Positions 15,838 to 30,325 of a DNA stretch of 64,000 bases are shown here, piece by piece. The notes beneath the pieces are model-generated. The model searched no databases, was not told where the DNA came from, and saw only the letters and a program-made list of their open reading frames with translations. Numbering within the stretch: the stretch's first letter is position 1; every line of letters starts with the position of its first letter. The position numbers and the translations under genes were made by a program. Origin of the DNA: Roseospira goensis (lineage in GTDB: Bacteria; Pseudomonadota; Alphaproteobacteria; Rhodospirillales; Rhodospirillaceae); the NCBI RefSeq assembly GCF_014197795.1, contig NZ_JACIGI010000021.1, forward strand, positions 1 to 64,000, read 5' to 3'.

Positions 15838-15856
15838 CTTTCCGCAATGCGGAAAG
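15838..15856. promoter_or_regulatory. Perfect palindrome upstream of malate synthase G (IclR-type operator candidate)
   Basis: CTTTCCGCAATGCGGAAAG is a perfect 9-1-9 palindrome about 115 bp before the malate synthase start. Its core TTCC-N7-GGAA (15840-15854) has the form typical of IclR-family operators. The same spacing occurs twice upstream of bhcA (29949, 30051). A second small palindrome, TCCATATGGA, lies at 15883-15892 and shares TCCATATGG with the bhcA site. The regulator itself is not in the window. Confidence 0.6.
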
Positions 15857-15970
15857 GGGGGCTCACGACGCCGGCCGACCTGTCCATATGGAGAGGTCAT
15901 GAGGCGCCAGACGAGCAGGGCCGATCCTGCCCGCAAAGGCGTGGTCCTGAACCGGAAGAGGAGACCTGTC

Positions 15971-18166
15971 GTGACCGGCACTGTGCAACGGGGTGGCCTG
16001 CGCGTCGCCGAGAGCCTGGACCGCTTTGTCACCGAGGAGGCGTTGCCCGGCACCGGCATCGAGGCGGCGTCCCTGTGGGCGTCGCTGGAGTCGATCCTGA
16101 CCGATCTGGCCCCGCGCAACCGGGCGCTGCTGGCGGAGCGCGACCGGATGCAGCGCGCGATTGACGCCTGGCATGCGGACCGGCGCGGCCAACAGCACGA
16201 TCACGCGGCCTATGTCGCCTTCCTGCGCGACATCGGCTACCTGCGGGCGGAGCCCGACGCCGCGGCGGCGCAGGCGACCACGGCCCACGTCGATCCCGAG
16301 ATCGCGTCGATCGCCGGCCCCCAGCTCGTGGTGCCGGTGATGAACGCGCGCTACGCCCTCAATGCCGCCAACGCCCGCTGGGGCAGCCTGTACGATGCCC
16401 TCTACGGCACCGACGCGATCCCGCAGGACGCGGGCGCGCCGGCCGGGGCGGGGTACGACCCGGCGCGCGGTGCCCGGGTGATCGCCGAGGCGCGGCGTCG
16501 CCTGGACACGGCGGCGCCGCTGGCGGCGGGCTCGCACGCCGACGCCACCGGCTATGCCATCCGGGACGGCGCCCTGGCGGTGACGCTGGCCGACGGTCGC
16601 ACCAGCGGTCTCGCCGATCCGGCCGCCCTGGCGGGCTATACGGGCGAGGCCGCGGCGCCGGCCTCCGTGCTGCTGCGCCGTCACGGCCTGCACCTGGAAA
16701 TCGTGATCGACCGCACCCATCCGATCGGCCGCACGGATCCCGCCGGGGTCGCGGACGTGGTGCTGGAATCGGCGGTTACCACCATCCAGGACGCCGAGGA
16801 CAGCGTCGCCGCCGTCGACGCGGCCGACAAGGTGGCGGTCTACCGCAACTGGCTGGGCCTGATGAAGGGCGACCTCGCGGCCACCTTCGAGAAGGACGGC
16901 CGCCGGCACACCCGCCGCCTCAACCCGGACCGCGTGTTCACTACCCCCGACGGCGCCGGCACCCTCACCCTGCCTGGGCGCGCCCTGATGCTGGTGCGCA
17001 ACGTCGGTCCCCTGATGACCAGCGACGCGGTGCTGTTGCCGGACGGCTCGGAGGCGCCCGAGGGCATCCTGGACGCCCTGTTTACCAGCCTGATCGCGTT
17101 GCATGACCTCAAGGGCACCGGCCCGCTGCGCAACAGCCGCGCCGGGTCGGTCTACATCGTCAAGCCGAAGATGCACGGCCCGGACGAGGTGGCGTTCGCC
17201 GACACCCTGTTCGCCCGCGTCGAGGACGCCCTGGGGCTGGCCCGTAACACCCTCAAGATGGGCATCATGGACGAGGAGCGGCGCACCACGGTGAACCTCG
17301 CCGCCTGCATCGCCGCCGCGCGCGCCCGCGTGGTGTTCATCAACACCGGCTTCCTGGACCGCACCGGCGACGAGATTCACACGTCGATGGAGGCCGGCCC
17401 GATGATCCGCAAGGCGGACATGAAGGGCACCGCCTGGATCCAGGCCTACGAGGACCGCAACGTCGACGTCGGCCTGGCCTGCGGGCTGCGCGGCCGCGCC
17501 CAGATCGGCAAGGGCATGTGGGCCATGCCGGCGCGCATGGCGGATATGCTGGCGGCCAAGATCGGCCATCCGGAGGCCGGCGCCAACACCGCCTGGGTGC
17601 CGTCGCCCACCGCGGCCACGCTGCACGCGCTGCATTATCACCAGGTGGACGTGGCGGCGCGCCAGGCCGCGCTGGCCGACCGCCCGCGCGCCAGCCTGGA
17701 CGACATCCTGACGATTCCGCTGGCGGCCGATCCGTCCTGGTCGGCCGAAGAGATCCAGCAGGAGCTGGACAACAACTGCCAGGGGATCCTGGGGTATGTG
17801 GTGCGCTGGGTGGATCAGGGCATCGGCTGCTCGACGGTGCCGGACATCAACGACGTCGGCCTGATGGAGGACCGCGCCACCCTGCGCATCTCCAGTCAGC
17901 ATCTCGCCAACTGGTTGCGCCATGGCATCTGCGCGCGGGAGCAGGTGATGGCGACCCTGACCCGCATGGCCGCCGTGGTCGACCGCCAGAACGCCGGCGA
18001 TCCGGCCTATCGCCCGATGGCGCCCGATCCGGCCGGCAGCGTGACGTTTCAGGCGGCCTGTGACCTGATCTTCGACGGGGCCGCCCAGCCCAACGGCTAT
18101 ACCGAGCCGGTGCTGCACCGCCGCCGCCGCGAGGCCAAGGCGCGCCTGCATACGCTGGCGGCGTAG
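15971..18166 (+). CDS. glcB: Malate synthase G
   Basis: This enzyme condenses glyoxylate with acetyl-CoA to form malate, feeding glyoxylate into the TCA cycle. At 731 residues it has the length of the monomeric G isoform. Motifs include [24 protein letters not shown] around the catalytic arginine and [14 protein letters not shown]. Near the end, [17 protein letters not shown] carries the catalytic aspartate. I chose the GTG at 15971 because AGGAG lies 8-10 bp upstream. The longer open frame runs antisense through the photolyase promoter. The stop codon TAG forms the first bases of a 64-bp palindrome. glcG follows, as in glc operons. Confidence 0.95.
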
Positions 18167-18227
18167 GGCAGATCGTGGTCAATCTGAACCACAGCGTGGG
18201 TCTGATGGATGACGTGAATCTGCCCTG
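18164..18227. repeat. 64-bp palindromic element, copy D
   Basis: This element begins at the TAG stop of malate synthase (TAGGGCAGAT) and ends ATCTGCCCTG. The outer pair GGGCAGAT/ATCTGCCC is perfect and the centre holds a CCACAGCGTGG hairpin. Measured symmetrically, the element is 64 bp like copies A-C. It may act as a terminator-like structure or mRNA stabiliser between glcB and glcG. Confidence 0.65.
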
Positions 18228-18338
18228 AATCACATAGTCGGGGCGGCCGTCTGACACGCCACGGCCGTCCATACACGACGGCGCGGCTGGCCGGCCCTCC
18301 TTCCTTCCTCCGTTGGACACGACCCAAGGACAGGTTTC

Positions 18339-18785
18339 ATGTTCGAACACTCCCTCTCGCTGGACACCGCCGATGCCATCGCCGACGCCGTGCTGGAGGC
18401 CGGCCGCGCCGACGGCCTGCAACCGCTCACCGTGGCGGTGCTGGACGACGGCGGCCGCCTCAAGGTGCTGAAGCGCGCCGACGGGTCCAGCGTGCTGCGG
18501 CCCGAGATCGCCCTGGGCAAGGCCTTCGGTGCGCTCTCGCTCGGCATGGGCGGGCGTGAGCTGGCGCGCCGCTCGCAGAAGATGCCGGGCTTCATGAACG
18601 CCCTGTCCGACCTCGCCGGCGGTCTGGCCGTGCCGGTGCCGGGCGGCGTGCTGGTCCGCTCGGCCGAGGGCCGCATCCTGGGCGCCGTCGGCGTGACCGG
18701 CGATCTGTCGGAGAACGACGAAGCGTGCGCCGTGGCGGCGATCACCAAGGCCGGCCTGGTGGCCGACACCGGCGATCCGGCCTGA
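18339..18785 (+). CDS. glcG: GlcG/HbpS family protein (DUF336)
   Basis: This 148-residue single-domain protein is of the GlcG/HbpS family, whose members bind heme or small ligands and often sit in glycolate/glyoxylate operons. The family signature is visible: AVLDDGGRLKVLKRADGS, then RPEIALGKAFGALSLGMGGREL, and the C-terminal GGVLVRS..GRILGAVGVTGDLSENDE. AAGGA lies 9 bp before the ATG. Its position after malate synthase G parallels glcGB arrangements. The precise molecular role is unknown for the family. Confidence 0.85.
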   Translation: MFEHSLSLDTADAIADAVLEAGRADGLQPLTVAVLDDGGRLKVLKRADGSSVLRPEIALGKAFGALSLGMGGRELARRSQKMPGFMNALSDLAGGLAVPVPGGVLVRSAEGRILGAVGVTGDLSENDEACAVAAITKAGLVADTGDPA

Positions 18786-18813
18786 GTCCCCGGACCATGG
18801 CCCGGATACGACG

Positions 18814-18843
18814 CGACCCCCGCGCCGCTGGGCACGGGGGTCG
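18814..18843. terminator. Hairpin between convergent glcG and phasin genes
   Basis: CGACCCCCG and CGGGGGTCG form a perfect 9-bp stem with a 12-base loop, midway between two convergent genes. There is no clear T-run, so bidirectional termination is inferred from position and stability. Confidence 0.5.
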
Positions 18844-18868
18844 TGGCGTGTTCCCGGGGTCCCGGTGA

Positions 18869-19216
18869 TCAGGCGCGGGCGAAGCCGTCGATGACCGCCT
18901 TGGTGCGCGCCTGCAGCGGCTCCATGGTGCTCTTCATGACGCTGTTCGACAGGTCCACCATCTTCTTGGACTGGGCCACCATGGCATCCCAGTTGTCCTT
19001 GACCAGCTTGGTCTGAAGGTTGGTGAAGTCGGCGGGCGTCTTGCACGCGCCCAGCTGCTTGCTGGCCGCGACCGCGCCGTCCATGGACTTGGACGAGAAG
19101 GCCACCGCCTCCTTGCTCATGTCTTCCAGGCCCTTCGCCAGGACCTTGCTGGCGGCACTCGCGGCGTCCAGGTTGTCCTTGTTGAAGGACATCAGATCTT
19201 CGTAGGTGCGGATCAT
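18869..19216 (-). CDS. Phasin family protein
   Basis: This 115-residue amphipathic helical protein coats polyhydroxyalkanoate granules. Phasin character is seen in the opening MIRTYEDLMSFNKDNLDAASAASKVLAKGLEDMSKEA, the SSKSMDGAVAASKQL segment and the C-terminal STMEPLQARTKAVIDGF. AAAGG precedes the ATG at 19216. A longer upstream reading frame exists but carries no phasin sequence. The presence of a phasin suggests the organism stores PHA/PHB. Upstream sites resembling PhaR operators support autoregulated expression. Confidence 0.85.
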   Translation of the reverse strand: MIRTYEDLMSFNKDNLDAASAASKVLAKGLEDMSKEAVAFSSKSMDGAVAASKQLGACKTPADFTNLQTKLVKDNWDAMVAQSKKMVDLSNSVMKSTMEPLQARTKAVIDGFARA

Positions 19217-19358
19217 GGCATGTGCCTTTCGTGTCTGCGGACTCGCGGGTCTCTCGGTCTGCGCCGGCCCGGCCGGCCGGCGGGTGCGCCCTGAGCGCCG
19301 GGCGTCTTGGCATTCCGTTTGAGGCGCAGGGCAGCCGGTGATGCCTCGTGGGCTCGCC

Positions 19359-19374
19359 ATGCTGCACTGCAATA
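19359..19374. promoter_or_regulatory. Candidate PhaR-type site upstream of the phasin gene
   Basis: ATGCTGCACTGCAATA contains the TGC/GCA inverted half-sites (TGCTGCAcTGCA) typical of PHA-responsive PhaR operators. It lies about 145 bp before the phasin ATG, next to an AT-rich stretch that could hold the promoter. Confidence 0.45.
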
Positions 19375-19418
19375 TACTCCCTGAGTTTAGTGCGTTTCGG
19401 GGCCGTGTCAATGGGTTT

Positions 19419-19433
19419 TTGTGCGCTGCACAA
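19419..19433. promoter_or_regulatory. Second TGC/GCA palindrome, candidate PhaR-type site
   Basis: TTGTGCGCTGCACAA is a perfect 6-3-6 palindrome, 45 bp from the first site. It lies between the divergent phasin gene and the hypothetical gene at 19534. Two related sites would fit cooperative repression. Confidence 0.45.
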
Positions 19434-19533
19434 TAACGGCCAGGTTGAACCTGAAACGATTGATTTTCCAAGAGAATGTAGGGTGCTAAAGTGGGCTCGC
19501 GGACAGAATGTTACAGCATAGGGGAGGCGGGCC

Positions 19534-20160
19534 ATGACGGATGCGCGCGCCACCAGGGCTTCCGAGCCGGCGCCCGCCGAAGCGGCGTCGACGGACAAGG
19601 CCGCGGACGACGGCACGCCTGGGACCACGGACGACACGACGGACGACACGACGGACGACACCCGCGCGACCGCGCGCCCGGACTCGGCCGCCTGTGTCGC
19701 GGTGCGGGCGCGGCTGGCGGGCACCAACATCAACCCGGAGACCCTGCTGGCGACCGACTATCTCAATCATTTCAATGAGATCATCATGATGCTGGAGATG
19801 GTCCCGGATATGCCGGACCTGGTCGAGGACTGCAAGGAGTGGCAGCCGAAGTCCTACACCGACCACTTCGCCGACAGCGCGTTCCGCGACAAGGCGCTGG
19901 CCATCGAGGCATTCGCCCTGTGCCCGCCGCGGTACCGGGTGCCCTTCGATGAGACCATCGCGCAGATGAACATGTTGGCGCTGGCCACCGTGGAGCGCAT
20001 GGAGGCCGCGCTGGCCGCCGGCGAGACCGAGGCCGTGGCGATGCAGGCGCGCAGTGCGAGCCAGGCTCTGCAACGCCTGATGGACATGGCGGGCGCGATC
20101 ATCCACGGTGCCCAGACCACCCTGGACCAGAGCGAGATCGACGCCATCCTGGGCTCGTGA
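19534..20160 (+). CDS. Hypothetical protein with a CheZ/FliM-like C-terminal tail
   Basis: This 208-residue protein has a disordered acidic N-terminus that includes three TDDT-type repeats encoded by a 12-bp tandem repeat at 19624-19659. A helical body follows (ETLLATDYLNHFNEIIMMLEMVPDMPDLVEDCKEW, ..RVPFDETIAQMNMLALATVERMEAAL). The last residues, LDQSEIDAILGS, resemble the LSQDEIDALL peptide by which FliM and CheZ bind CheY. I know no characterised family. It diverges from the phasin gene. Confidence 0.68.
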   Translation: MTDARATRASEPAPAEAASTDKAADDGTPGTTDDTTDDTTDDTRATARPDSAACVAVRARLAGTNINPETLLATDYLNHFNEIIMMLEMVPDMPDLVEDCKEWQPKSYTDHFADSAFRDKALAIEAFALCPPRYRVPFDETIAQMNMLALATVERMEAALAAGETEAVAMQARSASQALQRLMDMAGAIIHGAQTTLDQSEIDAILGS

Positions 20161-20220
20161 CGCGCGCGGATCCCGGGGGGTGACACCCCGTGACCCCTGA
20201 GCACCGATCCCGGAGCCGCC

Positions 20221-21699
20221 ATGCCCGCCTCCCTGCAGACCGCCCCGCTGGCCACGCTGGTGCCGGCGGACCCCTGGCGCCGGCCGCCGTTCCCGGACCT
20301 GACCGACGGCCGCCTGACCCTGCGCGGCCAGACCGCCGACGCCCTGGCCGCGCGCTACGGCGCACCGCTGTTCGTGTTCGACGGCCCGGGCATCGAAGCC
20401 GCGCTGGCGCGGCTGCGGGCGGCCCTGGACCGGCACCATCCCAACACCCGCATCGCCTATGCGGCCAAGGCTTGTGGCCTGCGGGCGGTGCTGGAGCTGA
20501 TGCGCGCCGCCGGCGCCGACATTGAGGTCAACAGCGGCGGCGAACTCGAAAAGGCCATGCTGGCGGGCTTCCGCCCCGACCAGGTGGTGTTCAACGGGGT
20601 CGCCAAGACCGACGCCGACCTGACGCACGCGATCCGCCTCGGCGTGGGGGCGATCAACATCGACTCGGTGCACGAACTGGAGCGGGCCGCCGCGATGGCC
20701 GGCGATGTGGGCCGGCCGGCCCGCGTGGCCCTGCGCCTGGTGCCGGACCTGACCGGCGGCACGGCCCCCGGGCAGGAGACCGGGGGCGCGGCGACCAAGT
20801 TCGGCTGCACCCCCGGTGAATTGCCGGCGCTGGCGGCGGTGCTGGCGGGGGCCGGCGACCGGATCGACCTGGTCGGCGTGCACGTCCACGCCGGGTCGCA
20901 GATCACCGACGCCGCCACCTTCGCGGCGGTGGGGCAAAGGGTGGTAGACCTGGTCCGCATGGTCACCGCCGCAACCGGCCGTGCGGTGCCGAGCGTGAAC
21001 GTGGGCGGCGGCCTGCCGGTGGCCTATGTGGCCGCGCCGGCCCCGGGGGCGGTGCCCGACTACCTCCACGCCGGCATCGGGCCGGACGAGGCGGCATCGG
21101 CCCTGCTGACGCCGATCCGCGACGGTCTGGGCGAGGCCGTGACGGTGGTCCTGGAGCCCGGGCGGTCGCTGGTGGCCGGCGCGGCGGTGCTGCTGGCCCG
21201 CGTGGTGAACGCCAAGGCCCGCGACGGGGCGCGCTGGCTGCTGCTGGATGCGGGCTTCAACGTCCTGGGCGATCAGTTCGGCTACAAGTGGTACTTCCAC
21301 ATGGTCAACGCGACCCGGGCCGGGGCGTCGCACGACACGCCGTTCCGGGTCGGCGGACCGCTGTGCGACGGCGGCGACGTGTTCTTCGATGTGGACGGGG
21401 AAAGTCAGGTCGCCGCGCTGCTGGCGGCGATGCCGGCGCTGGCCGAGCGGGCCGAGGATCTGCGCCGGTTGCTGGTGCGGCTGCCGACGCATCGGGCGCT
21501 CCCGCTCGGCAGCACCGTGGGGGACGTGCTCTGTCTGCTGGACGTGGGCGCCTATGCCGTCGACCAGGTGACGCACTACAACGGCCGGCCGGCACCGGCG
21601 GTGGTGATGCTGGACGCCGACGGCGCCGACCATCTGGTGCGCCGGCGCGAGACGGTCATGGACCTGATGGTGCATGACGCCGGTTGGCCGCCGGCCTGA
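20221..21699 (+). CDS. PLP-dependent decarboxylase, fold type III (diaminopimelate decarboxylase-like)
   Basis: This 492-residue enzyme is of the LysA/ornithine-decarboxylase group, which decarboxylates amino acids on an alanine-racemase-like TIM barrel. The PLP lysine lies in RIAYAAKACGL. Further motifs are EVNSGGELEKAM, GVHVHAGSQI, NVGGGLPV, VVLEPGRSLVAGA and GGPLCDGGDVFFD (active-site cysteine loop). It is longer than a standard LysA (about 420) because of inserted and terminal segments. It could therefore act on diaminopimelate or a related substrate; no lysine genes are adjacent. An aminotransferase resembling DapC lies 3 kb away. Confidence 0.78.
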   Translation: MPASLQTAPLATLVPADPWRRPPFPDLTDGRLTLRGQTADALAARYGAPLFVFDGPGIEAALARLRAALDRHHPNTRIAYAAKACGLRAVLELMRAAGADIEVNSGGELEKAMLAGFRPDQVVFNGVAKTDADLTHAIRLGVGAINIDSVHELERAAAMAGDVGRPARVALRLVPDLTGGTAPGQETGGAATKFGCTPGELPALAAVLAGAGDRIDLVGVHVHAGSQITDAATFAAVGQRVVDLVRMVTAATGRAVPSVNVGGGLPVAYVAAPAPGAVPDYLHAGIGPDEAASALLTPIRDGLGEAVTVVLEPGRSLVAGAAVLLARVVNAKARDGARWLLLDAGFNVLGDQFGYKWYFHMVNATRAGASHDTPFRVGGPLCDGGDVFFDVDGESQVAALLAAMPALAERAEDLRRLLVRLPTHRALPLGSTVGDVLCLLDVGAYAVDQVTHYNGRPAPAVVMLDADGADHLVRRRETVMDLMVHDAGWPPA

Positions 21700-21705
21700 C
21701 GCGGC

Positions 21706-21925
21706 GCGCCCCCAAGGGAGCGGGGGCGCGAGAACCCCGGTTTCTGGGTCCCACGCTCCGGCGTGGGACCGGTTTGCGCGCTGCGCCCCCGCGGGAGCGG
21801 GGGCGCAAGAACCCCGGTTTCTGGGTCCCACGCGCCGGCGTGGGACCGGTTTGCGCGCTGCGCCCCCGCGGGAGCGGGGGGCGCGAGAACCCCGGTTTCT
21901 GGGTCCCACGCTCCGGCGTGGGACC
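21706..21925. repeat. Three direct copies of a hairpin-rich repeat
   Basis: A unit of about 78 bp is repeated almost perfectly three times (the third copy is truncated). Each copy contains GCGCCCCC..GGGGGCGC, then ACCCCGGTTTCTGGGT, then the hairpin CCCACGCTCCGGCGTGGG. The block fills the convergent gap between the decarboxylase and dps. The same CCCACGC/GCGTGGG hairpins recur at 30083-30325 and 40497-40560, so this is a dispersed repeat family. The hairpins may end transcription from both sides. Confidence 0.8.
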
Positions 21926-21933
21926 CGCCGCCG

Positions 21934-22425
21934 TCAGCCCGCCGTGGCGCGCAGCATCCAGGCGGTCTTCTCGTGCACGCCCAGGCGGTCGGTGAGCAGC
22001 CCGGCGGTGACCTCGTCGGAGACCTCGGCCGCCTCCGCGATCAGCGGCCGGATGGCGCGGGCCAGCGCGTCGTGATCCTTCGCCAGGGTGCTGACCATCG
22101 CATCGGCGGCCGGCGGCGTCTCGGGCGCATCCTCGATCACGCTCAGCGCGGCATAGCGGCCCAGGCCGCCCGGGGCCACGCTGCCGAGGGACCGGATGCG
22201 CTCGGCGATCTCGTCCACGGCACCGTACAGGTCGGTGTATTGCTCCTCGAACAGGGCGTGCAGGCCCTGGAAGCGCGGCCCGGTGACGTTCCAGTGGAAG
22301 TTGTGGGTCTTCAGGGCCAGGGTGAAGGTCGCCGCAAGCACGCCGGTCAGCCCCTGCGCCACACTGGTGCGGGCGTTCTCCTCAAGGCCGGTCTCGATCG
22401 GCGTGGCAAGCCTCTGGTCGGTCAT
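21934..22425 (-). CDS. dps: Dps family DNA-binding ferritin-like protein
   Basis: This 163-residue Dps/ferritin-like protein forms dodecamers that oxidise and store iron and protect DNA in starvation and oxidative stress. The ferroxidase centre is visible in LALKTHNFHWNVTGPRFQGLHALFEEQYTDLYGAVDEIAERI, which includes the conserved H, HxxW and Asp/Glu ligands. The C-terminal helix reads RLGVHEKTAWMLRATAG. The start at 22425 has a strong GGAGG. It lies next to the phasin and decarboxylase genes, and no OxyR or Fur site is evident. Confidence 0.93.
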   Translation of the reverse strand: MTDQRLATPIETGLEENARTSVAQGLTGVLAATFTLALKTHNFHWNVTGPRFQGLHALFEEQYTDLYGAVDEIAERIRSLGSVAPGGLGRYAALSVIEDAPETPPAADAMVSTLAKDHDALARAIRPLIAEAAEVSDEVTAGLLTDRLGVHEKTAWMLRATAG

Positions 22426-22572
22426 CGTTTTCCCTCCGTCGGTGATTCGGGAAGCCGCGCGCACCGCAGGTGCGGGCTTGTGCGATGAACATATGGAGCG
22501 CCCGCCGGCTAATCCAACAGAAAATGTGTGTCAATTTCAGTGACCGAACCGATCGCCCCGGCGGCGCCGGCC

Positions 22573-23055
22573 CTACAGGGCGTAGCGCATGCGGAAGGTG
22601 TGGCGCGTCTCGGGCGCCGTGACCGTGACCGCGGCATCCGCGAAGGTGGGCCGCGCCGGCACCACGCTGGGGTCGCGGGTGAAGCCGAAGCCTTCCAGCG
22701 GGATACCGAAAAGCCCCGTATCGAAGCGGCCGTTGTCGTTCTGGTCGTGATAGGCCGCGACGGCGTAGCGGCCCGGCGCCAGGTCCGGGATACGCACCGT
22801 GACGCGGTCGCCGCGGACCGTGGCCTTGGTGCCCGCCCGCTTGGCGTCGGCGTCCAGGAAGGCGGCGGGGTCGTCGTAGACGGCGACGTAGACGGTGCCG
22901 CCCGACTCCGCCAGGTCCGTGATGGTCAGGGCCAGCGTGGCCGTGGGCGCCGGACCGGGCTCGGCACCGGCGAGGGTTGGCAGCACGGCCATCAGCGCCA
23001 GCAGGACGGGCACCCATCTCCGCCGGCACCGTCCGCCGGGGGGTGTGAGGGGCAT
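22573..23055 (-). CDS. Secreted DUF2141 family protein
   Basis: This protein of about 160 residues has a signal peptide (RRRWVPVLLALMAVLPTLAGA) and a single DUF2141 beta-sandwich domain. Visible motifs are LALTITDLAESGGTVYVAVYDDPAAF, then GRYAVAAYHDQNDNGRFDTGLFGIPLEGFGF. The DQNDNGRFD loop is typical of the family and resembles a calcium-binding loop. The function of DUF2141 proteins is unknown. I chose the ATG at 23055 because GGAGA lies 5-6 bp upstream; the ATG at 23067 is the alternative. Confidence 0.8.
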   Translation of the reverse strand: MPLTPPGGRCRRRWVPVLLALMAVLPTLAGAEPGPAPTATLALTITDLAESGGTVYVAVYDDPAAFLDADAKRAGTKATVRGDRVTVRIPDLAPGRYAVAAYHDQNDNGRFDTGLFGIPLEGFGFTRDPSVVPARPTFADAAVTVTAPETRHTFRMRYAL

Positions 23056-23125
23056 CGGGGTCTCCATGTCAGACGGGAGGCTACGGATCGGGCAATGATC
23101 CTATCCGTCGCGCGGCCCGGCGCCG

Positions 23126-23413
23126 TCACGGATGGGGGCCGCGCTTGTTGCGACTGCGCAGGCCGTAGCCGCAGTCGCATTTCTCCGATCCCTTGACCAG
23201 CCGGGCCGACCACTCGGTGCCCGGGCTGCCCGGCTTGTCGGCGCGTTCCCAGGCGAACTCGGCGCCGCAGCGCTGGCACACCATGTTGGCGGGTTGCTGG
23301 CGCTCGGCGAGGCTGCGCCCGACCGGCCGGGCGGCGCGCGAGCGCAGGCCGGCGCGCTTCGGGGGCGGGACCAGGACCCCTTTCTCGGGTTTTCCGGACG
23401 GCGGAGCGGCCAC
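23126..23413 (-). CDS. Small zinc-ribbon protein
   Basis: From a GTG at 23413, preceded by GGAGG at 5 bp spacing, this encodes 95 residues. The basic N-terminal half leads to two CxxC-type knuckles, MVCQRCGAEFAWE and EKCDCGYG, which could bind one zinc ion. The C-terminus is basic (RSRNKRGPHP). The upstream ATG of the longer frame gives a proline/arginine-rich extension that does not look coding. I do not recognise a named family; nucleic-acid binding is an inference. Confidence 0.6.
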   Translation of the reverse strand: MAAPPSGKPEKGVLVPPPKRAGLRSRAARPVGRSLAERQQPANMVCQRCGAEFAWERADKPGSPGTEWSARLVKGSEKCDCGYGLRSRNKRGPHP

Positions 23414-23493
23414 CGTAGCCTCCGTGGCTGTGCAGGATCGACGCCCGTAGCGTAGCGCGGCCCGCCCCGCCATGCCACAGGGCCGCAAACGAA

Positions 23494-23523
23494 ACGCCCG
23501 CCGCGGGGAGGCGCGGCGGGCGT
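23494..23523 (-). terminator. Rho-independent terminator (leftward)
   Basis: ACGCCCGCCGCG and CGCGGCGGGCGT form a perfect 12-bp stem with a 6-base loop. Reading on the minus strand, the stem is followed by TTTCGTTTG, a T-rich tail. It is 350 bp downstream of the aminotransferase stop at 23875, so it ends either the bhc operon transcript or a separate RNA from the gap. Confidence 0.7.
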
Positions 23524-23760
23524 TGCGTGATGGGACCGACCTGACGTGTGGCTGAGGCACGCGGGCCGGTGAGGGTCCATCTCTGGGGACCGGCGGCTGG
23601 CTGGACCGACCGGACCCGGCGGGACCGAACGTGGCTGAGGCGTGCGGTCCCAGGAGGGGTATGGCTGGATATCGAGCATCCCCCTTGTCGGGGGTTTAGG
23701 CCGGTCCGTGGAGCGCCCGACCTGATGATGGGAGACTATACCCGACTGCCTTACTGTGTC
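23524..23760 (-). ncRNA. Possible small RNA ending at the 23494 terminator
   Basis: This stretch has no credible gene, yet ends in a strong leftward terminator. On the minus strand a TATAGT box lies near 23735. Downstream are a CCCCCGACAAGGGGG hairpin and two copies of GCCTCAGCCAC, about 90 bases apart, in similar GC-rich stem contexts. It could equally be the 3' UTR of the bhc-aminotransferase operon. I could not match it to 6S, SRP, RNase P or tmRNA. Confidence 0.25.
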
Positions 23761-23874
23761 TTGTCCGTCCGATGACAGATTTGTAATTGTTCAAAAAAGG
23801 GGGCGGGGTGCGGACGGCCCGACGCGCCGGCCGCGGCCGACTCGGGCGGGCGGCCGCTCCGCCGGACCACCGTG

Positions 23875-25077
23875 CTACAGCAGGGGCCGGATGCGGCGCA
23901 GCGCGGCCTCGACGGTGGCGGCGTCGTGCACCAGGGCGAGGCGGATGTAGGGGGCGCCCGGGTTGACGCCGTGGGCGTCGGGGCGGCCGAAGTAGGCGCC
24001 CGGGACCACCTTGACCCCGGCCTCCGCCCACAGGCGCCGGGCGGTCGTCTCGGCCCGGTCCGCGCCGACCTCCAGCCACAGGAAGAACCCGGCCTCCGGG
24101 CGGGCGTAGCCCGGATGATCGCCGAGCACGGCATCGGCGATCTCGACGTTGCGGCGGTAGTAGGCGCGGTTCTCCGCCACATGGGCATCGTCCGCCCACA
24201 GTCGGGCGGCGGCGGCCTGGGAGGGCAGGGGGATGAACACCGCGCCGTAGTCGCGCAGCTTCAGGAACGGCCGGATCACCCCCGGGTCGCCGGCGCAGAA
24301 GCCGGCGCGCAGGCCGGCCAGGCTGGAGCGCTTCGACAGCGAGTGGAACACGACCACGTTGTCCAGCGTGCCGTCCAGGGCGAGGGCGGCCTGGAGCGCC
24401 GTCGGCGGCGGGGCGCCGTAGTACAGTTCGGCGTAGCACTCGTCGACCACGAGCACGAAGTCGTGGGTTCGCGCCAACTCCACGGCGCGCGTGAGGTAGT
24501 CCAGGTCCGCCACCGTGCCGGCCGGATTGGTCGGCGAGCACAGGTAGAACAGCGACGTCCGCGCCCAGGTGTCGGCGTCCACCGCGTCCAGGTCGGGCAG
24601 GTGCCCGGTCTCCCGGGTGGTGTTCAGGAACACCGGCTCGGCGCCGGCGGTGAGGGCGGCACCCGCATAGGTGTGGTAGAACGGGTTCGGGATCAGAACC
24701 GCGGGCGGCCGGTTGGTGCCCTCGGCGCGGCGCGGGGTCACCACCTGCGGCAGCATGAACAGGCCCTCGCGGGTGCCGGCCAGGGGCGCGATCGACTCGC
24801 CCGCCCGGATCACGCCGGCAGGCAGGCCGAAGCGTCGCTCCAGCCACCCGACCATGGCAGCGTTGAGCGCGTCGGTGCCGCGCGGGCTGACGTACTTGCC
24901 CCACAGGTGGGCGTTCTCGGCCAGGGCCTCGGCCACGAACGCCGGGTAGCGGTTCTGCGGCTCGCCCACCGACATCAGCAGCGGCGGCGGATCGTCCGGC
25001 GGCGTGACATCGGCGATCAGCGCGTTCATGCGCGCAAAAGGGCTGTCGGGCAACTGGTCGAGGGCAGGGTTGAGCAT
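23875..25077 (-). CDS. Class I/II PLP aminotransferase (DapC-like) at the end of the bhc operon
   Basis: This 400-residue fold-type I aminotransferase starts MLNPALDQLPDSPFARMNAL, like succinyl-diaminopimelate aminotransferases. Substrate and cofactor motifs are MSVGEPQNRYP, LIPNPFYHTYAGAA, YLCSPTNPAGT, VLVVDECYAELYY, and the PLP lysine in FHSLSKRSSLAGLRAGF. The GDP and IRLALVH segments complete the fold. It begins 61 bp after bhcD on the same strand and probably belongs to that transcript. In this context it could replenish amino groups for the cycle instead of making lysine; the substrate cannot be read from sequence. Confidence 0.8.
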   Translation of the reverse strand: MLNPALDQLPDSPFARMNALIADVTPPDDPPPLLMSVGEPQNRYPAFVAEALAENAHLWGKYVSPRGTDALNAAMVGWLERRFGLPAGVIRAGESIAPLAGTREGLFMLPQVVTPRRAEGTNRPPAVLIPNPFYHTYAGAALTAGAEPVFLNTTRETGHLPDLDAVDADTWARTSLFYLCSPTNPAGTVADLDYLTRAVELARTHDFVLVVDECYAELYYGAPPPTALQAALALDGTLDNVVVFHSLSKRSSLAGLRAGFCAGDPGVIRPFLKLRDYGAVFIPLPSQAAAARLWADDAHVAENRAYYRRNVEIADAVLGDHPGYARPEAGFFLWLEVGADRAETTARRLWAEAGVKVVPGAYFGRPDAHGVNPGAPYIRLALVHDAATVEAALRRIRPLL

Positions 25078-25138
25078 CGGGGCACCACGAACGGTGGGGG
25101 AACAGGGCGGATCGGTCCGCACTGTCCCCGATGCCGGC

Positions 25139-26104
25139 TCACATGTCCACGCTCTGCGCCAGCCCCTGCGCGCGCGCCAGCCGCACCGCCACGGCGGCGA
25201 CCGCCAGATCCTGGAGGCCAACACCGGTGCCGTCGAACAGGGTGATCTCGTCGGCGTCGACCCGGCCCGGGCGGTCGCCGGTGAGGACCGCGCCCAGCGG
25301 CGTGATCGCCGCCGGCGTCAGCAGCCCGGCCTCGACCGCGTGCTGACACTCGCCGAGCCGCACCGCCTGGTCGATCTCGTCGGTGAACACGTGGGCGGTG
25401 CTGACCAGGGCGGGGTCCAGCTCCTGCTTGCCCGCGGTGTCGGTGCCCATGCAGGCGATGTGGGTCCCCGGCCGCACCTGGCCGCACATCAGCAGGGGTT
25501 CGAAGCACGACGTGATGGTGATGATGACGTCGGCGCGCGCGCCCAGGGTGTCGCGGTCGACGGCCTCGAACGGCAGGCCGACCGCGGCGGCGGCCTCGGC
25601 CAGGCGGTCGAGCATCGAGGGATCGACGTTCCAGCCCAGAACGCGGGAGAACGTTCGCTGCGCGGCGGCGGCGTGAAGCTGGAACGGGGCCTGATGGCCG
25701 GCGCCGACGATGCCGAGCACATGGGCGTCGGGGCGCGCCAGATGCTTGATCGAGACCGCGCTGGCGGCGGCGGTGCGCAGCGCGGTCAGATGATTGCCGC
25801 CGACCACCGCATGGGGGCGGCCGGTATCGGGGTCGAACAGCACCACCGTGGACTGGTGGTTGGTCAGGCCCTTGTCCGCGTTGCCGGGCCAGTAGCCGCC
25901 GGATTTCAGGCCCAGGACCTGCCCGGCGCGGTCGAAGCCGGACTTGAAGCCGTAGACCGCGTCGGCATGCCCCAGGGTTTCGCGCACGACCGGGAAGTTC
26001 CAGGCGTCGCCGCGCGCCATGGCGGCAAAGGTGGCCTCGACGGCCGCGAAGGCGGCGGCGGGCGTCACCAGGTCGCGGGCGACCGATTCGGGCACCAGGA
26101 ACAT
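25139..26104 (-). CDS. bhcD: Iminosuccinate reductase BhcD (ornithine cyclodeaminase/mu-crystallin family)
   Basis: This 321-residue NAD(P)-dependent enzyme is of the ornithine cyclodeaminase family. In the beta-hydroxyaspartate cycle, BhcD reduces iminosuccinate to aspartate. The Rossmann loop is GIVGAGHQAPFQLHA near the middle. The substrate side shows GFKSGFDRAGQVLGLKSGGYWPGN, VVGGNHLTALRTAAASAVS and HIACMGTDTAGKQELDP. The assignment over a generic cyclodeaminase rests on its place with bhcA-C on the same strand. It is separated from bhcC by 342 bp that carry a long inverted repeat. Confidence 0.85.
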   Translation of the reverse strand: MFLVPESVARDLVTPAAAFAAVEATFAAMARGDAWNFPVVRETLGHADAVYGFKSGFDRAGQVLGLKSGGYWPGNADKGLTNHQSTVVLFDPDTGRPHAVVGGNHLTALRTAAASAVSIKHLARPDAHVLGIVGAGHQAPFQLHAAAAQRTFSRVLGWNVDPSMLDRLAEAAAAVGLPFEAVDRDTLGARADVIITITSCFEPLLMCGQVRPGTHIACMGTDTAGKQELDPALVSTAHVFTDEIDQAVRLGECQHAVEAGLLTPAAITPLGAVLTGDRPGRVDADEITLFDGTGVGLQDLAVAAVAVRLARAQGLAQSVDM

Positions 26105-26260
26105 GGGTTGGTTTCCTTCTTGGGTGCGTGTTTCGGTGGACGGCCCCGCCGTCAGAGCCACATCACTGCGAACCCGCGTCGCAGATGCGGGCGACGCCAT
26201 CCAGAGCAGAAAGGCAGAGATCCGCCCTGGATGGCTTCGTTGCCGCGCCGTGCCCGGCCG

Positions 26261-26350
26261 TAGGTTGGGGTGACGCCCGCAGGGCGGAACCCCAACAGCG
26301 CCGCGACGATCGCGGTGCGCGTTGGGGTTCGCTGCGCTCACCCCAACCTA
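26261..26350. repeat. 90-bp nested inverted repeat inside the bhc operon
   Basis: The element begins TAGGTTGGGGTGA and ends TCACCCCAACCTA (13-base perfect inversion). Nested inside are GAACCCCAAC/GTTGGGGTTC arms and a GC-rich centre. It has the look of a miniature mobile or REP-type element and lies between bhcD and bhcC, lengthening that gap. Such a stable structure could reduce bhcD expression relative to bhcABC. Confidence 0.8.
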
Positions 26351-26446
26351 CATCCGTTGGAACGGATCATCCGGATTGGGTATGACAGGAACAGAGCCAA
26401 CGTCTGTATTGGATGGCGCCGGGACGTCGCCTGTCGCGGCGCGCCC

Positions 26447-27601
26447 CTACAGGGCCAGGCCGCGCGCGGTGACCGGCCACACCGCCTCGACCACGCCGCC
26501 GCGCACCGCGACGTACCAGTCGTAGACGTTGCAGGTCGGGTCGCAATGGCCCGGCACCAGCTTCAGCTTCTCGTTGAGCTTGAGGACACCCTGGGGGTCG
26601 CTGATGACGCCGTGCTCGTCCGAGCACTTGATGTATTCGACGTCGTCGCGACCGAAGATGACCGGCAGCCCCGAGTCCACGCTCTGGGCCTTCAGGCCGG
26701 CGTCGCAGATGGCCTTGTCCGCCTTGGCGTGCGACATCACCGAGGTGAGGATGAACAGGCTGTTCTCGAACTCCGAGATGACCCGGCCGTCGGGGTCGAG
26801 GACCCGCTGATAGTCGGCGTCCATGAACACGTAGGAGCCGCACTGCAACTCGTTGTACACGCCACTGGCGCCCTCGAAGTAGTACGTCCCGGTGCCGGCG
26901 CCGCCGACGATGGCGCAGTCCAGCCCGGCCGCCGTGAGCAGGTCCACGGTCTCGCGCACCTTGGCGATGGCGGCCTCGATCTTGGCCTTGCGCTCCGCGA
27001 AGTCGTGCACGTGCTGGGCCGCGCCCTGGTAGGCCTGGAGGCCGGAGAAGGCGAGGCCGGGGGCCGCCGCGATCGCCTGCGCCAGCGCCACGGCCGGGGC
27101 GCCGGGGGCGACGCCGCAGCGGCCGGCGCCGACGTCGATCTCCACCAGGCACTCCAGGGTCACGCCGTGGCGGGTGGCGGCGGCCGACAGGTCCGCGACG
27201 TTGCCGGCGTCGTCGACGCAGACCAGCACCCGGGCTTTCTTCGCCATGGCGGCGAGGCGGTCGATCTTGCCCGGGTCGACGACCTCGTTGGAGACCAGCA
27301 CGTCCTTGACCCCGGCGTCGACCAGGGCTTCGGCCTCGGCCACCTTCTGGCAGCACACGCCGCAGGCGCCGCCGTGCTCGATCTGATACAGCGCGATATC
27401 GGCGGACTTGTGGGTCTTGGCGTGGGCGCGCAGGCGCAGGCCGTGCGCCTCGATGAAGGCCTTCATGGTCTGCACGTTTTTCTCGAAGGCGTCCAGGTCG
27501 ACGATCAGGGCGGGGGTGCCGATCTCGTCGATCGTCATGCCGACGGCGGCCGGCACGGTGTAGCCGACGACGGGCGGGGCGGTCTTGGTGATGGCGTTCA
27601 T
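26447..27601 (-). CDS. bhcC: 3-hydroxyaspartate aldolase BhcC (D-threonine aldolase family)
   Basis: This 384-residue PLP- and metal-dependent enzyme condenses glycine and glyoxylate to beta-hydroxyaspartate, the entry step of the cycle. The fold-type III barrel shows IGTPALIVDLDAFEKNV, the PLP lysine region RLRAHAKTHKSADIA, LECLVEIDVGAGRCG and the C-terminal metal site VPGHCDPTCN. Length and motifs fit BhcC and D-threonine-aldolase-like proteins. The ATG at 27601 follows AGGAG. It starts 23 bp after bhcB. Confidence 0.92.
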   Translation of the reverse strand: MNAITKTAPPVVGYTVPAAVGMTIDEIGTPALIVDLDAFEKNVQTMKAFIEAHGLRLRAHAKTHKSADIALYQIEHGGACGVCCQKVAEAEALVDAGVKDVLVSNEVVDPGKIDRLAAMAKKARVLVCVDDAGNVADLSAAATRHGVTLECLVEIDVGAGRCGVAPGAPAVALAQAIAAAPGLAFSGLQAYQGAAQHVHDFAERKAKIEAAIAKVRETVDLLTAAGLDCAIVGGAGTGTYYFEGASGVYNELQCGSYVFMDADYQRVLDPDGRVISEFENSLFILTSVMSHAKADKAICDAGLKAQSVDSGLPVIFGRDDVEYIKCSDEHGVISDPQGVLKLNEKLKLVPGHCDPTCNVYDWYVAVRGGVVEAVWPVTARGLAL

Positions 27602-27624
27602 GGCGGGTCTCCTGCGGGGGGCGG

Positions 27625-28602
27625 TCAGGGCGTCATCCAGGGCAGCCTGTCGAGATCCACGTTGCCGCCGGTGATGATGACGCCGACGCGCTTGCCGGCG
27701 AACACGGCGGGATTCTTGAGGATGGTGGCCAGCGGCACGGCGCAGGACGGCTCCATCACGATCTTCATGCGCTGCCAGGTCAGGTACATGGCGTCGATGA
27801 TCTCCTGCTCCGTGGCGAGCAGGATGTCGGTGACGTAGCGTGACACGAAATGCCACGTGTATTCCTTCAAGGGCACCTTGAGGCCGTCGGCGACGGTCTG
27901 GGGGGCATCGTCGGCGATGATGTGGCCGGCCTTCAGCGAGCGGCAGGCATCGTCCGCGTTCGCGGGCTCGGCGGCGTAGATCGCGGTCCGGGGCGACAGC
28001 GTGGACAGCGTCAGGCAGGTGCCCGAGACCATGCCGCCGCCGCCGATCGGCGCGATCACCGCATCCAGCGACCCGATGTCCTCGAGCAGCTCCTTGGCGC
28101 AGGTGGCCTGCCCCGCGATGACGCGCGGGTCGTTGTAGGGGTGCACGAAGTCGGCGCCGGTTTCGGCCACCACCTCGGCGAACACGGCCTCGCGCGACGA
28201 CGTGCTGGGCTCGCACTCGACCACCCGGCCGCCGTAGCCCATGACGGCCTCCTTCTTGGCCCGCGGCGCCGTGCGCGGCATGACCACCGTGCAGGCGATG
28301 CCGCGCCGGCCGGCGGCGTAGCTGAGCGACAGGCCGTGATTGCCGGAGGAATGCGTGGCGACGCCCCGGGCCGCCTGCTCGTCGGACAGACCGAAGACGG
28401 CGTTGCTGGCGCCGCGCGCCTTGAAGGCCCCGGCCTTCTGGAAGTTTTCGCACTTGAAGAACAGCCGCGCGCCCGTCATGCGGTCGAAGGTCTCTGACGT
28501 CAGCACCGGCGTGCGGTGGATGTAAGGCCGGATGCGGTCGTGCGCCGCCAGGACATCGTCGAAGGTGGGAACGGCGGCGGGAGGAGCGGTGAGCGCGGTC
28601 AT
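27625..28602 (-). CDS. bhcB: Beta-hydroxyaspartate dehydratase BhcB
   Basis: This 325-residue PLP enzyme is of the serine/threonine dehydratase (fold type II) family. In the cycle it dehydrates erythro-beta-hydroxyaspartate to iminosuccinate. Visible are the PLP lysine motif FFKCENFQKAGAFKARGASNAV, the SSGNHGLSLSYAA loop and the phosphate-binding GGGGMVSGT. I chose the ATG at 28602 (MTALTAPP); a few codons lie open upstream. It lies between bhcA (44 bp gap) and bhcC (23 bp gap). Alone it could be called threonine dehydratase, but the operon supports the hydroxyaspartate role. Confidence 0.9.
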   Translation of the reverse strand: MTALTAPPAAVPTFDDVLAAHDRIRPYIHRTPVLTSETFDRMTGARLFFKCENFQKAGAFKARGASNAVFGLSDEQAARGVATHSSGNHGLSLSYAAGRRGIACTVVMPRTAPRAKKEAVMGYGGRVVECEPSTSSREAVFAEVVAETGADFVHPYNDPRVIAGQATCAKELLEDIGSLDAVIAPIGGGGMVSGTCLTLSTLSPRTAIYAAEPANADDACRSLKAGHIIADDAPQTVADGLKVPLKEYTWHFVSRYVTDILLATEQEIIDAMYLTWQRMKIVMEPSCAVPLATILKNPAVFAGKRVGVIITGGNVDLDRLPWMTP

Positions 28603-28646
28603 GATCGTACCCTCTGGGGCGGTGTCTCTGTGCAACGGGACCCGGG

Positions 28647-29858
28647 TCAGGCGGCGGCGGTGGCGGCCGGGGCAGGGGCCGTGGCGGCCTCGGCGGCGGT
28701 CTCGCGGTACCAGGCCTGGGCGGCGGCGACGCCGCTGCCCAGGGTGACGGGATAGCCCAGGTCCGCCATGGCCATCTCGGCGGTGGCCAGGCCGGACAGC
28801 GCCATCACGTCGGTCATCTGGCCCAGGTGGCCGATCCGGAACAGCGTGCCGGCGACGTCGCCCAGGCCGCCGCCGAAGGACACGCCATAGCGGTCGTAGG
28901 CATGCCGGACCAGGGCGTCGGCGTCATGGCCCTCGGGCACCATGATGGCGGTCACGCTGTCCGAGCCGATCTCGGGCCGGCGCGCGCACAGCGGCAGGCC
29001 CCAGGCCGCCACCGCGCGCCGCACCCCCTCGGCGATGCGCCGGTGACGGGCGAACACCGCGTCCAGCCCTTCCTCTTCCAGCATCGCCACGGCCTCGCGC
29101 AGGCCATACAGCAGCGGCACCGGCGGGGTATACGGGTAGCCACCGCCGGCCGTGGTGCCCAGCATGTCGCGCATGTCGAAGTAGCAGCGCGGGCAGCCGG
29201 CGGTCTCCATGGCGGCGCGGGCCTTGGTGCTGACGCCGACGATGGCGAGCCCGGTCGGCAGCATCAGGCCCTTCTGCGAGCCGGTCACGGCCAGGTCGAC
29301 CCCCCAGTCGTCCATGCGGAAGTCCATGGCGCCAATCGAACTGACGCCGTCGACGAAGAGAAGCGCCGGGTGCCCGGCGTCGTCCAGCGTGCGGCGGACG
29401 GCGGCGACGTCGCTGCGCACGCCGGTGGCAGTTTCGTTGTGGGTGACCAGGACAGCCTTGATGCGGTGTTCGCGGTCGGCGGCGAGGGCCTCGGCGTAGG
29501 CGTCGAGCGGCACGCTCTCGCCCCAGGGGGCCTCGATGACCTGGACGTCGAGGCGGTGGCGCCGACACAGGTCGATCCAGCGGTGCGAGAACATGCCGTG
29601 GCGGGCCGCCAACACCCGGTCCCCGGGGGACAGCGTGTTGGTGACCGCCGCCTCCCAGCCGCCGGTGCCGCTGGACGGGAACACCACGATCTCGCCGCGG
29701 GTGGTCTGGAACACCGCCTTCAGGCCCTCCAGCAGCGCGGCCAGGAACGCCGGAAAGTCGGACGCCCGGTGGTCGTGCGTCGGCACATCCACGGCGCGGC
29801 GCAGGCGCTCCGGGATGTTGGTCGGGCCGGGGATGAACACGGGGTTCGGGCTGGACAT
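28647..29858 (-). CDS. bhcA: Aspartate-glyoxylate aminotransferase BhcA
   Basis: This 403-residue class V aminotransferase is of the serine/alanine-glyoxylate type. BhcA moves the amino group of aspartate to glyoxylate, giving oxaloacetate and glycine and so closing the cycle. Motifs are FIPGPTNIPERLRRA, FPSSGTGGWEAAVTN, VLVTHNETATGV, FVDGVSSIGAMDFRMDDWG and the PLP lysine K196 in GSQKGLMLPTGLA. The Ala-rich C-terminal tail (ATAPAPAATAAA) is unusual. A purine-rich site (AGGGGGAAA) precedes the ATG. It is the first gene of the operon, and two IclR-type sites lie upstream. Confidence 0.92.
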   Translation of the reverse strand: MSSPNPVFIPGPTNIPERLRRAVDVPTHDHRASDFPAFLAALLEGLKAVFQTTRGEIVVFPSSGTGGWEAAVTNTLSPGDRVLAARHGMFSHRWIDLCRRHRLDVQVIEAPWGESVPLDAYAEALAADREHRIKAVLVTHNETATGVRSDVAAVRRTLDDAGHPALLFVDGVSSIGAMDFRMDDWGVDLAVTGSQKGLMLPTGLAIVGVSTKARAAMETAGCPRCYFDMRDMLGTTAGGGYPYTPPVPLLYGLREAVAMLEEEGLDAVFARHRRIAEGVRRAVAAWGLPLCARRPEIGSDSVTAIMVPEGHDADALVRHAYDRYGVSFGGGLGDVAGTLFRIGHLGQMTDVMALSGLATAEMAMADLGYPVTLGSGVAAAQAWYRETAAEAATAPAPAATAAA

Positions 29859-29948
29859 GGCGGTTTCCCCCTGATGGCGTCGCGCCTCGCGTGGCTTGGT
29901 TCGTTTCGAAGGAGTATGGGACGCGGCAGGCTTGCGGCCTACGTGGTT

Positions 29949-29963
29949 TTCCATATGGTGGAA
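29949..29963. promoter_or_regulatory. IclR-type operator candidate 1 upstream of bhcA
   Basis: TTCCATATGGTGGAA is an inverted TTCCA/TGGAA pair of the form TTCC-N7-GGAA, extended by GG/CC outside. It lies about 90 bp before the bhcA start. The same TTCC-N7-GGAA spacing occurs at 30051 and in the malate synthase palindrome at 15840. Confidence 0.55.
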
Positions 29964-30050
29964 CCGGTTTTCAGAATTGTGCGGCGCAGCAGGCTGCGGC
30001 GCGGCTGTCAAGTCGTTGCGCCACAACGCAAACGTGGCTGCCGGCGTGGT

Positions 30051-30065
30051 TTCCATGATACGGAA
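30051..30065. promoter_or_regulatory. IclR-type operator candidate 2 upstream of bhcA
   Basis: TTCCATGATACGGAA again fits TTCC-N7-GGAA and lies 102 bp (start to start) from the first site. A TTGACA box on the minus strand and a CGTTG/CAACG inverted pair lie between the two sites, around 30005-30030. The whole interval 29859-30070 is the likely control region of the bhc operon. Confidence 0.45.
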
Positions 30066-30082: not shown

Positions 30083-30325
30083 GCGCCCACGCGGGAGCGT
30101 GGGCGCAAGACCTGAAGAAAGCGCCCACGCTCCCGCGTGGGCGCAAGACCCAGTCCTCGTTTCTCGGTCCCACGCTCCGGCGTGGGATTTCTCGGTCCCA
30201 CGCTCTGGCGTGGGACCGCGTGCCGCTGCAACACGGGCGCCCCCGCGGGAGCGGGGGCGCAAGACCCCAAGAATGAGCGTGGGCGCGAGGTCCTCGCTCC
30301 GGGTCCCACGCTCCGGCGTGGGACC
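30083..30325. repeat. Cluster of dispersed hairpin repeats
   Basis: Several hairpins are packed together. Two are of the type GCCCACGC..GCGTGGGC, three are CCCACGCTCCGGCGTGGG or one-base variants, and one is GCGCCCCCGCGGGAGCGGGGGCGC-like. They belong to the same family as the block at 21706-21925 and the pair at 40497-40560. They fill the gap between the bhcA promoter region and the convergent end of the DUF4169 gene. Confidence 0.8.

Follow-up and report, generated by a model that had tools for sequence, protein, structure and literature searches.

GclR of Pseudomonas is an IclR-type repressor of gcl. The beta-hydroxyaspartate cycle handles glycolate carbon in a carbon-neutral way and is controlled in Paracoccus by a dedicated regulator; in Paracoccus denitrificans, BhcR is needed for the expression of the bhc genes, glyoxylate lowers its binding in vitro, and it is reported as an activator in vivo with a palindromic site upstream of the -35 element of bhcA (PMC11323563). 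The operators of the IclR group 1 are described by the consensus TYCRY-N-RYGRA, in the full form GKTYCRYW3-4RYGRAMC (PMC8222616). The locus considered here lies in a window of 64,000 nucleotides (nt) of Roseospira goensis (C21:1-64000; genome of 4.18 Mb in 81 contigs), in which both glcB, encoding malate synthase G, and the bhcABCD cluster are preceded by palindromes of the form TTCC-N7-GGAA. These three palindromes are very probably the operators of one IclR regulator, probably glyoxylate-sensing, encoded at C1:138829-139629 and having a wider predicted regulon that includes malyl-coenzyme A (CoA) lyase, glcD, and the tct operon. In this genome a general glyoxylate regulator seemingly governs the cycle, the malate-synthase branch that loses carbon, and the sources of glyoxylate alike.

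Predicted Operators Upstream of glcB and bhcA

The original prediction, made from the sequence of the window, had placed one palindrome before glcB and two sites of the same form before bhcA; a pattern scan of the window found all three exactly, at 15840-15854, 29949-29963, and 30051-30065. The predicted operators and the genes that they precede are the following:

15838..15856, strand not applicable: glcB operator, a perfect 19-base-pair (bp) palindrome, CTTTCCGCAATGCGGAAAG, read from the sequence
15884..15890, + strand: CCATATG, likely -10-like element of glcB, 29 nt past the operator, corresponding to TCCATATGGA
15971..18166, + strand: glcB, malate synthase G (NCBIfam, 1251 bits against a cut-off of 565)
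25139..26104, - strand: bhcD, iminosuccinate reductase (NCBIfam, 560.9 bits against 500)
26447..27601, - strand: bhcC, beta-hydroxyaspartate aldolase-like (Pfam Ala_racemase_N and D-ser_dehydrat only)
27625..28602, - strand: bhcB, beta-hydroxyaspartate dehydratase (NCBIfam, 618.5 bits against 550)
28647..29858, - strand: bhcA, aspartate-glyoxylate aminotransferase (NCBIfam, 707 bits against 650)
29913..29919, - strand: CCATACT, likely -10-like element of bhcA, 29 nt past the proximal operator
29949..29963, strand not applicable: proximal bhcA operator, TTCCATATGGTGGAA, at -105 from bhcA
30051..30065, strand not applicable: distal bhcA operator, TTCCATGATACGGAA, at -207 from bhcA

The bhc genes constitute a beta-hydroxyaspartate cycle cluster in which BhcA, BhcB, and BhcD exceed their equivalog cut-offs and BhcC is placed by its Pfam domains only.

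The element TCCATATGGA, which begins at 15883 on the 3' side of the glcB palindrome, had been taken for a match to the first bhcA site. Its candidacy as a second glcB operator was rejected: Roseospira marina (genus-mate G052, which we take to be this species) keeps only CCATAT, 29 nt past the operator as here, and the presence of CCATAT or C(C/G)ATA at a common 29-nt distance at glcB and bhcA fits a -10 element, so that TCCATATGGA is probably no second operator. The layout operator-N29-C(C/G)ATA, with no clear -35 element, recurs in both genomes at glcB and at the proximal site of bhcA; by this layout the operator would sit immediately upstream of -35, a position that suits an activator. The glcB promoter of genome G033 fits this layout only with a two-base shift; the layout was not seen at the malyl-CoA lyase, glcD, or tct promoters, and the sign of control may therefore differ by promoter.

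Specificity of the Motif

The bare TTCC-N7-GGAA pattern matches the window five times against 0.55 in shuffles, two of these matches (6643 and 41714) falling in coding-like sequence; across the genome it gives 50 sites, compared with 13 for the backwards control and with about 36 predicted when the shuffle mean of the window is scaled up to the genome length. As a predictor it was rejected, most of the 50 sites being coding-like; the sites of non-coding appearance (e.g., C4:94218, C10:74054, C22:6078, C29:45427, and C58:3104) do not fit the RY positions, and no glyoxylate gene was noticed by eye near them. The strict form TTTCC-RY-N3-RY-GGAA (TTTCCRYNNNRYGGAA) occurs at three distinct sites of the window, where 100 shuffles give 0.00, and at five distinct places in the genome, the three of the window included, against none for the backwards control. 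Every one of these places is a gap upstream of a gene: they precede glcB, bhcA (two sites), the divergent iclR and malyl-CoA lyase genes, and the tctCBA operon on C3, and all five are TYCRY-N3/4-RYGRA palindromes in promoters, as in IclR group 1. Allowing one mismatch, ten more places were checked by eye and no glyoxylate gene was recognised; C23:6458 (TTCCAGCATACGGAA) was discarded as an operator, being coding-like sequence. The independent tests of the strict form are its conservation and its co-occurrence with the regulator.

A genome-wide occurrence at chance frequency had been named as what would overturn the proposal; the bare pattern is indeed nearly at chance, whereas the strict form stands clear of its backwards control. 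An origin of the palindromes by chance in GC-rich promoters, to which the 50 bare sites against about 36 expected lend some weight, is extremely improbable in view of the same five promoters in R. marina, of the site presence that tracks the regulator, and of the enrichment upstream of class-wide relatives, all described below.

An Unlinked Candidate IclR Regulator

One shared IclR regulator absent from the window had been proposed, to be sought as an IclR gene near a further TTCC-N7-GGAA site; such a gene exists on C1, divergent from the malyl-CoA lyase gene and on another contig than bhc, with the strict operator TTTCCGCACAGTGGAA in the intervening gap, -87 from the lyase start. The genome, which is 98.6% complete, yielded three IclR_C genes, of which C1:138829-139629 is the strongest (PF01614 effector domain, 150.1 bits against a cut-off of 24). 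The other two were rejected as the regulator because they are distant (69.8 and 41.6 bits) and have no strict site nearby; the C10 IclR gene has a bare site at a distance of 1.2 kb, in coding-like sequence. The lyase is assigned by its best solved relatives (5ugr, 457 bits; 4l9y, 368 bits), with no NCBIfam model at cut-off. As far as the sequences indicate, one IclR-type regulator encoded outside the window probably acts on both glcB and bhcABCD.

The best NCBIfam model for the C1 IclR is BhcR (NF045644), with 310.1 bits below the cut-off of 350, and the next is IclR (252 bits against 380). The nearest solved structures are the ligand domains of E. coli IclR and AllR; of the five oxygen-binding ligand residues of E. 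coli IclR tabulated in PMC11323563, G160, D212, S239, and S241 are kept according to a hand mapping, and residue 161 is Val. BhcR as the identity of this regulator was rejected, since the score is below the NF045644 cut-off and the protein falls outside the BhcR clade; moreover, its gene, unlike bhcR, is not divergent from bhcA. In R. marina, bhcA has no bhcR in its vicinity.

Among 80 bhcA loci kept from 590, a divergent bhcR-like gene occurs in 73, a tandem IclR in two, and none was found in five; for one of these five, the upstream sequence is only 261 bp long. This prevalence, together with motif types common to IclR proteins (PMC8222616), would agree with two IclR regulators whose operators resemble each other, a true BhcR at another place in the genome serving bhc, and the C1 IclR acting on glcB and malyl-CoA lyase; such an arrangement is very unlikely, since only three IclR_C genes were found, the other two score far below the C1 protein and have no strict site near, and R. 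marina has bhcA without a nearby bhcR.

Predicted Regulon Beyond glcB and bhc

The C3 operon has the order tctC-tctB-tctA (Pfam), followed by the gene for a CoA ligase that, among solved structures, best matches oxalate--CoA ligases (5ie0, 412 bits; 6qjz, 391 bits) and by a PanE2-like gene assigned to the 2-dehydropantoate 2-reductase subfamily (535 bits, cut-off 223). Published descriptions of the Methylobacterium panE2 product make it either a CoA-acylating glyoxylate dehydrogenase or an oxalyl-CoA reductase (PMC7486775, PMC12686821), and the pairing of the CoA ligase with the PanE2-like gene suggests that the C3 operon may turn oxalate into glyoxylate. An exact TTCC-N7-GGAA that fits three of the four RY positions lies at -203 from glcD on C26. 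No isocitrate lyase is above cut-off in the genome (62 bits against 276), so malyl-CoA lyase is a plausible source of glyoxylate. The regulon of glcB and bhc envisaged at first is thus supported as far as it went and appears too narrow, malyl-CoA lyase, glcD, and the putative oxalate operon being predicted as members too.

Conservation and Covariation with the Regulator

The strict pattern has nine distinct exact places in R. marina, and five of these belong to the promoters of malyl-CoA lyase, glcB, bhcA, tct, and glcD. The glcB site is exact (TTTCCGTCATACGGAA) at -131, in the same position as here, and G033 has a one-mismatch site at -111. The proximal bhcA site is exact at -108 (-105 here), and the distal one has a counterpart at -211 with one mismatch (-207 here). 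In the promoter alignments the flanks have diverged between the genomes and most sites stand out. The tct operon is syntenic in R. marina; tctC is present in two of the seven genus genomes, both with the site.

Malyl-CoA lyase is present in all seven genus genomes, and its promoter carries an exact TTCC-N7-GGAA in the five that have the divergent iclR (with imperfect RY positions in G047 and G056) and in neither of the two that lack it. The latter (G015, with no IclR match, and G042, with distant IclR matches only) have no malyl-CoA lyase site even with one mismatch. The glcD site is found in three of the four examined genomes with the regulator, a count that leaves out the partial G056 gene, and in none of the two without. 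In a family sample of 60 genomes with 14 full-length glcB genes, the weak partial matches of G026 and G037 being left out, the four genomes with the regulator have two exact and two one-mismatch glcB sites, and the ten without it have no exact site and a single one-mismatch site.

Strict sites also stand before genes named by eye: a transhydrogenase-alpha-like gene in R. marina (C1:222386, L228), possibly a further regulon member, and a sulfite-oxidase-like gene in G033 (C153:88773, L236), either by chance or as a further target. The 16-mer TTTCCGTTATGTGGAA precedes a glucan-synthase-like gene both in R. marina (C23:16073, L247) and in G015 (C22:2650, L230).

Relatives and History of the Regulator

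A search of Alphaproteobacteria with the C1 IclR matched 50 of 385 genomes at E<=1e-40, this genome included, and 30 loci were read, namely the best-scoring 29 besides this genome and G007. In eight of these best-scoring loci iclR adjoins glcB (within about 1.5 kb); others lie near genes that by eye are glyoxylate-carboligase-like (five), glycerate-kinase-like (four), or pyruvate-kinase-like (three). An exact site occurs within 300 bp upstream of iclR in nine of the 30 loci against 0.2 expected by first-order resampling, and a site with at most one mismatch in 18 against 3.9. In the family f44 (L182, L187, and L193), where glcB is divergent, the iclR spacer has the variant half site TTTTCACAWTRYGGAA, which may reflect a changed specificity.

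An IclR tree of 76 rows, thinned from 122, places the five genus regulators in a single clade (100/99) outside the BhcR clade of 26 rows (100/100), and groups them with three glcB-adjacent regulators at 90/85, below the star of the tool; many of the deep forks in this tree lack resolution, and some of its outgroup branches are of great length. The BhcA of this genome forms a clade with that of R. marina (100/98), nested among bhcR-linked rows (99/93); because BhcA is nested among loci that keep bhcR, bhcR was apparently lost or left behind and a regulator of the glcB lineage took over the cycle. In L063 and L090, two metagenome-assembled alphaproteobacteria, an IclR that is 50-51% like the C1 IclR and outside the BhcR clade stands in tandem before bhcA, perhaps another regulator replacement.

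The exact bare form occurs within 400 bp of bhcA in five of the 73 bhcR-linked loci, all in Paracoccus. The bhcA promoters of Paracoccus have TTTCCG-N5-CGGAAA near -85, which is the same operator form, and with the nesting of BhcA among bhcR-linked rows this could mean that the C1 IclR serves glcB and malyl-CoA lyase while the bhcA sites are non-functional or remnants of a lost BhcR. Such an explanation is unlikely, because both site pairs would be expected to decay without a binding protein, but the bhcA sites conform to the strict RY pattern and have retained, in both genomes, their spacing and the N29 layout shared with glcB.

A Proposed Glyoxylate Regulon

The preferred reading is control by a single unlinked IclR. 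The C1 IclR would act at glcB, at bhcA, in the gap between iclR and the malyl-CoA lyase gene, at glcD, and at the operon of tctCBA, CoA ligase, and PanE2-like gene, and would couple the glyoxylate sources (glycolate oxidation, malyl-CoA cleavage, and oxalate) to two sinks, malate synthase G and the beta-hydroxyaspartate cycle. Glyoxylate would be its effector; glcB and bhcA would be activated from just upstream of -35, with autoregulation at the divergent iclR promoter. It seems rather likely, on the basis of the comparisons above, that BhcR was lost and that this IclR of the glcB lineage commands bhc, malate synthase G, malyl-CoA lyase, glycolate oxidase, and the transporter-linked oxalate-to-glyoxylate operon as the single glyoxylate sensor, keeping the main sources of glyoxylate in balance with its main sinks.

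Several observations weigh against the single unlinked regulator. The bare 15-mer is frequent in the genome, mostly in sequence that is coding-like by its codon-position composition, and the RY refinement was chosen after seeing the sites and is partly derived from them. In R. marina four of the nine exact places are outside the five promoters (a transhydrogenase-like promoter, two in coding-like sequence, and a glucan-synthase-like promoter, as named by eye); G015, which lacks the regulator, has one exact strict place, and G047, which has it, shows no site at glcD. In twelve of the 30 class loci no site appears even when one mismatch is allowed. A true bhcA is present in only two of the seven genus genomes, so that the conservation of the bhc sites amounts to one comparison. 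Malyl-CoA lyase, GlcD (searched with a truncated query), and the CoA ligase are all below their NCBIfam cut-offs, and the tct site is far from tctC (-382 here, -300 in R. marina).

The split of glyoxylate between the malate-synthase and bhc routes becomes directly testable, and the locus is a likely case of regulator replacement that predicts an operon for oxalate uptake and activation.

Other Features of the Window

One further gene lies downstream of glcB:

18339..18785, + strand: HbpS/GlcG-like gene (Pfam PF03928, 96.8 bits)

REP-like palindromes of the form CCCACGC-N4-GCGTGGG occur in two clusters, at 21750-21922 and 30086-30322, which hold five and seven of the 17 matches in the window (at most two mismatches; 3.2 expected); the second cluster starts about 20 bp past the distal bhcA operator.

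Comparison with Known Systems

Glyoxylate-responsive control by IclR-type proteins is already known; among open-licence papers, none was found that links glcB, malyl-CoA lyase, glcD, or oxalate genes with bhc under one IclR. GclR of Pseudomonas, compared by description only, is likewise a regulator of glyoxylate use, and several relatives of the C1 IclR lie near glyoxylate-carboligase-like genes; in contrast, no tie of GclR to glcB, malyl-CoA lyase, or bhc was seen. The operators of the IclR group 1 (GKTYCRYW3-4RYGRAMC) include the form found here, but the main text of that survey names no glcB, malyl-CoA lyase, or bhc regulon (PMC8222616). E. coli IclR and AllR are glyoxylate-binding regulators of glyoxylate genes and their ligand domains are the nearest solved ones, with most residues kept (PMC11323563, PMC8222616); they differ in their targets and operators (TGGAAATNATTTCCA for IclR), and both are described as repressors. 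BhcR shares with the C1 IclR the family, the best NCBIfam model, and a palindromic site upstream of the -35 element of bhcA; in contrast, BhcR is encoded divergently from bhcA and forms its own clade, whereas the C1 IclR is unlinked, scores below the BhcR cut-off, and is predicted to act at five promoters including that of glcB.

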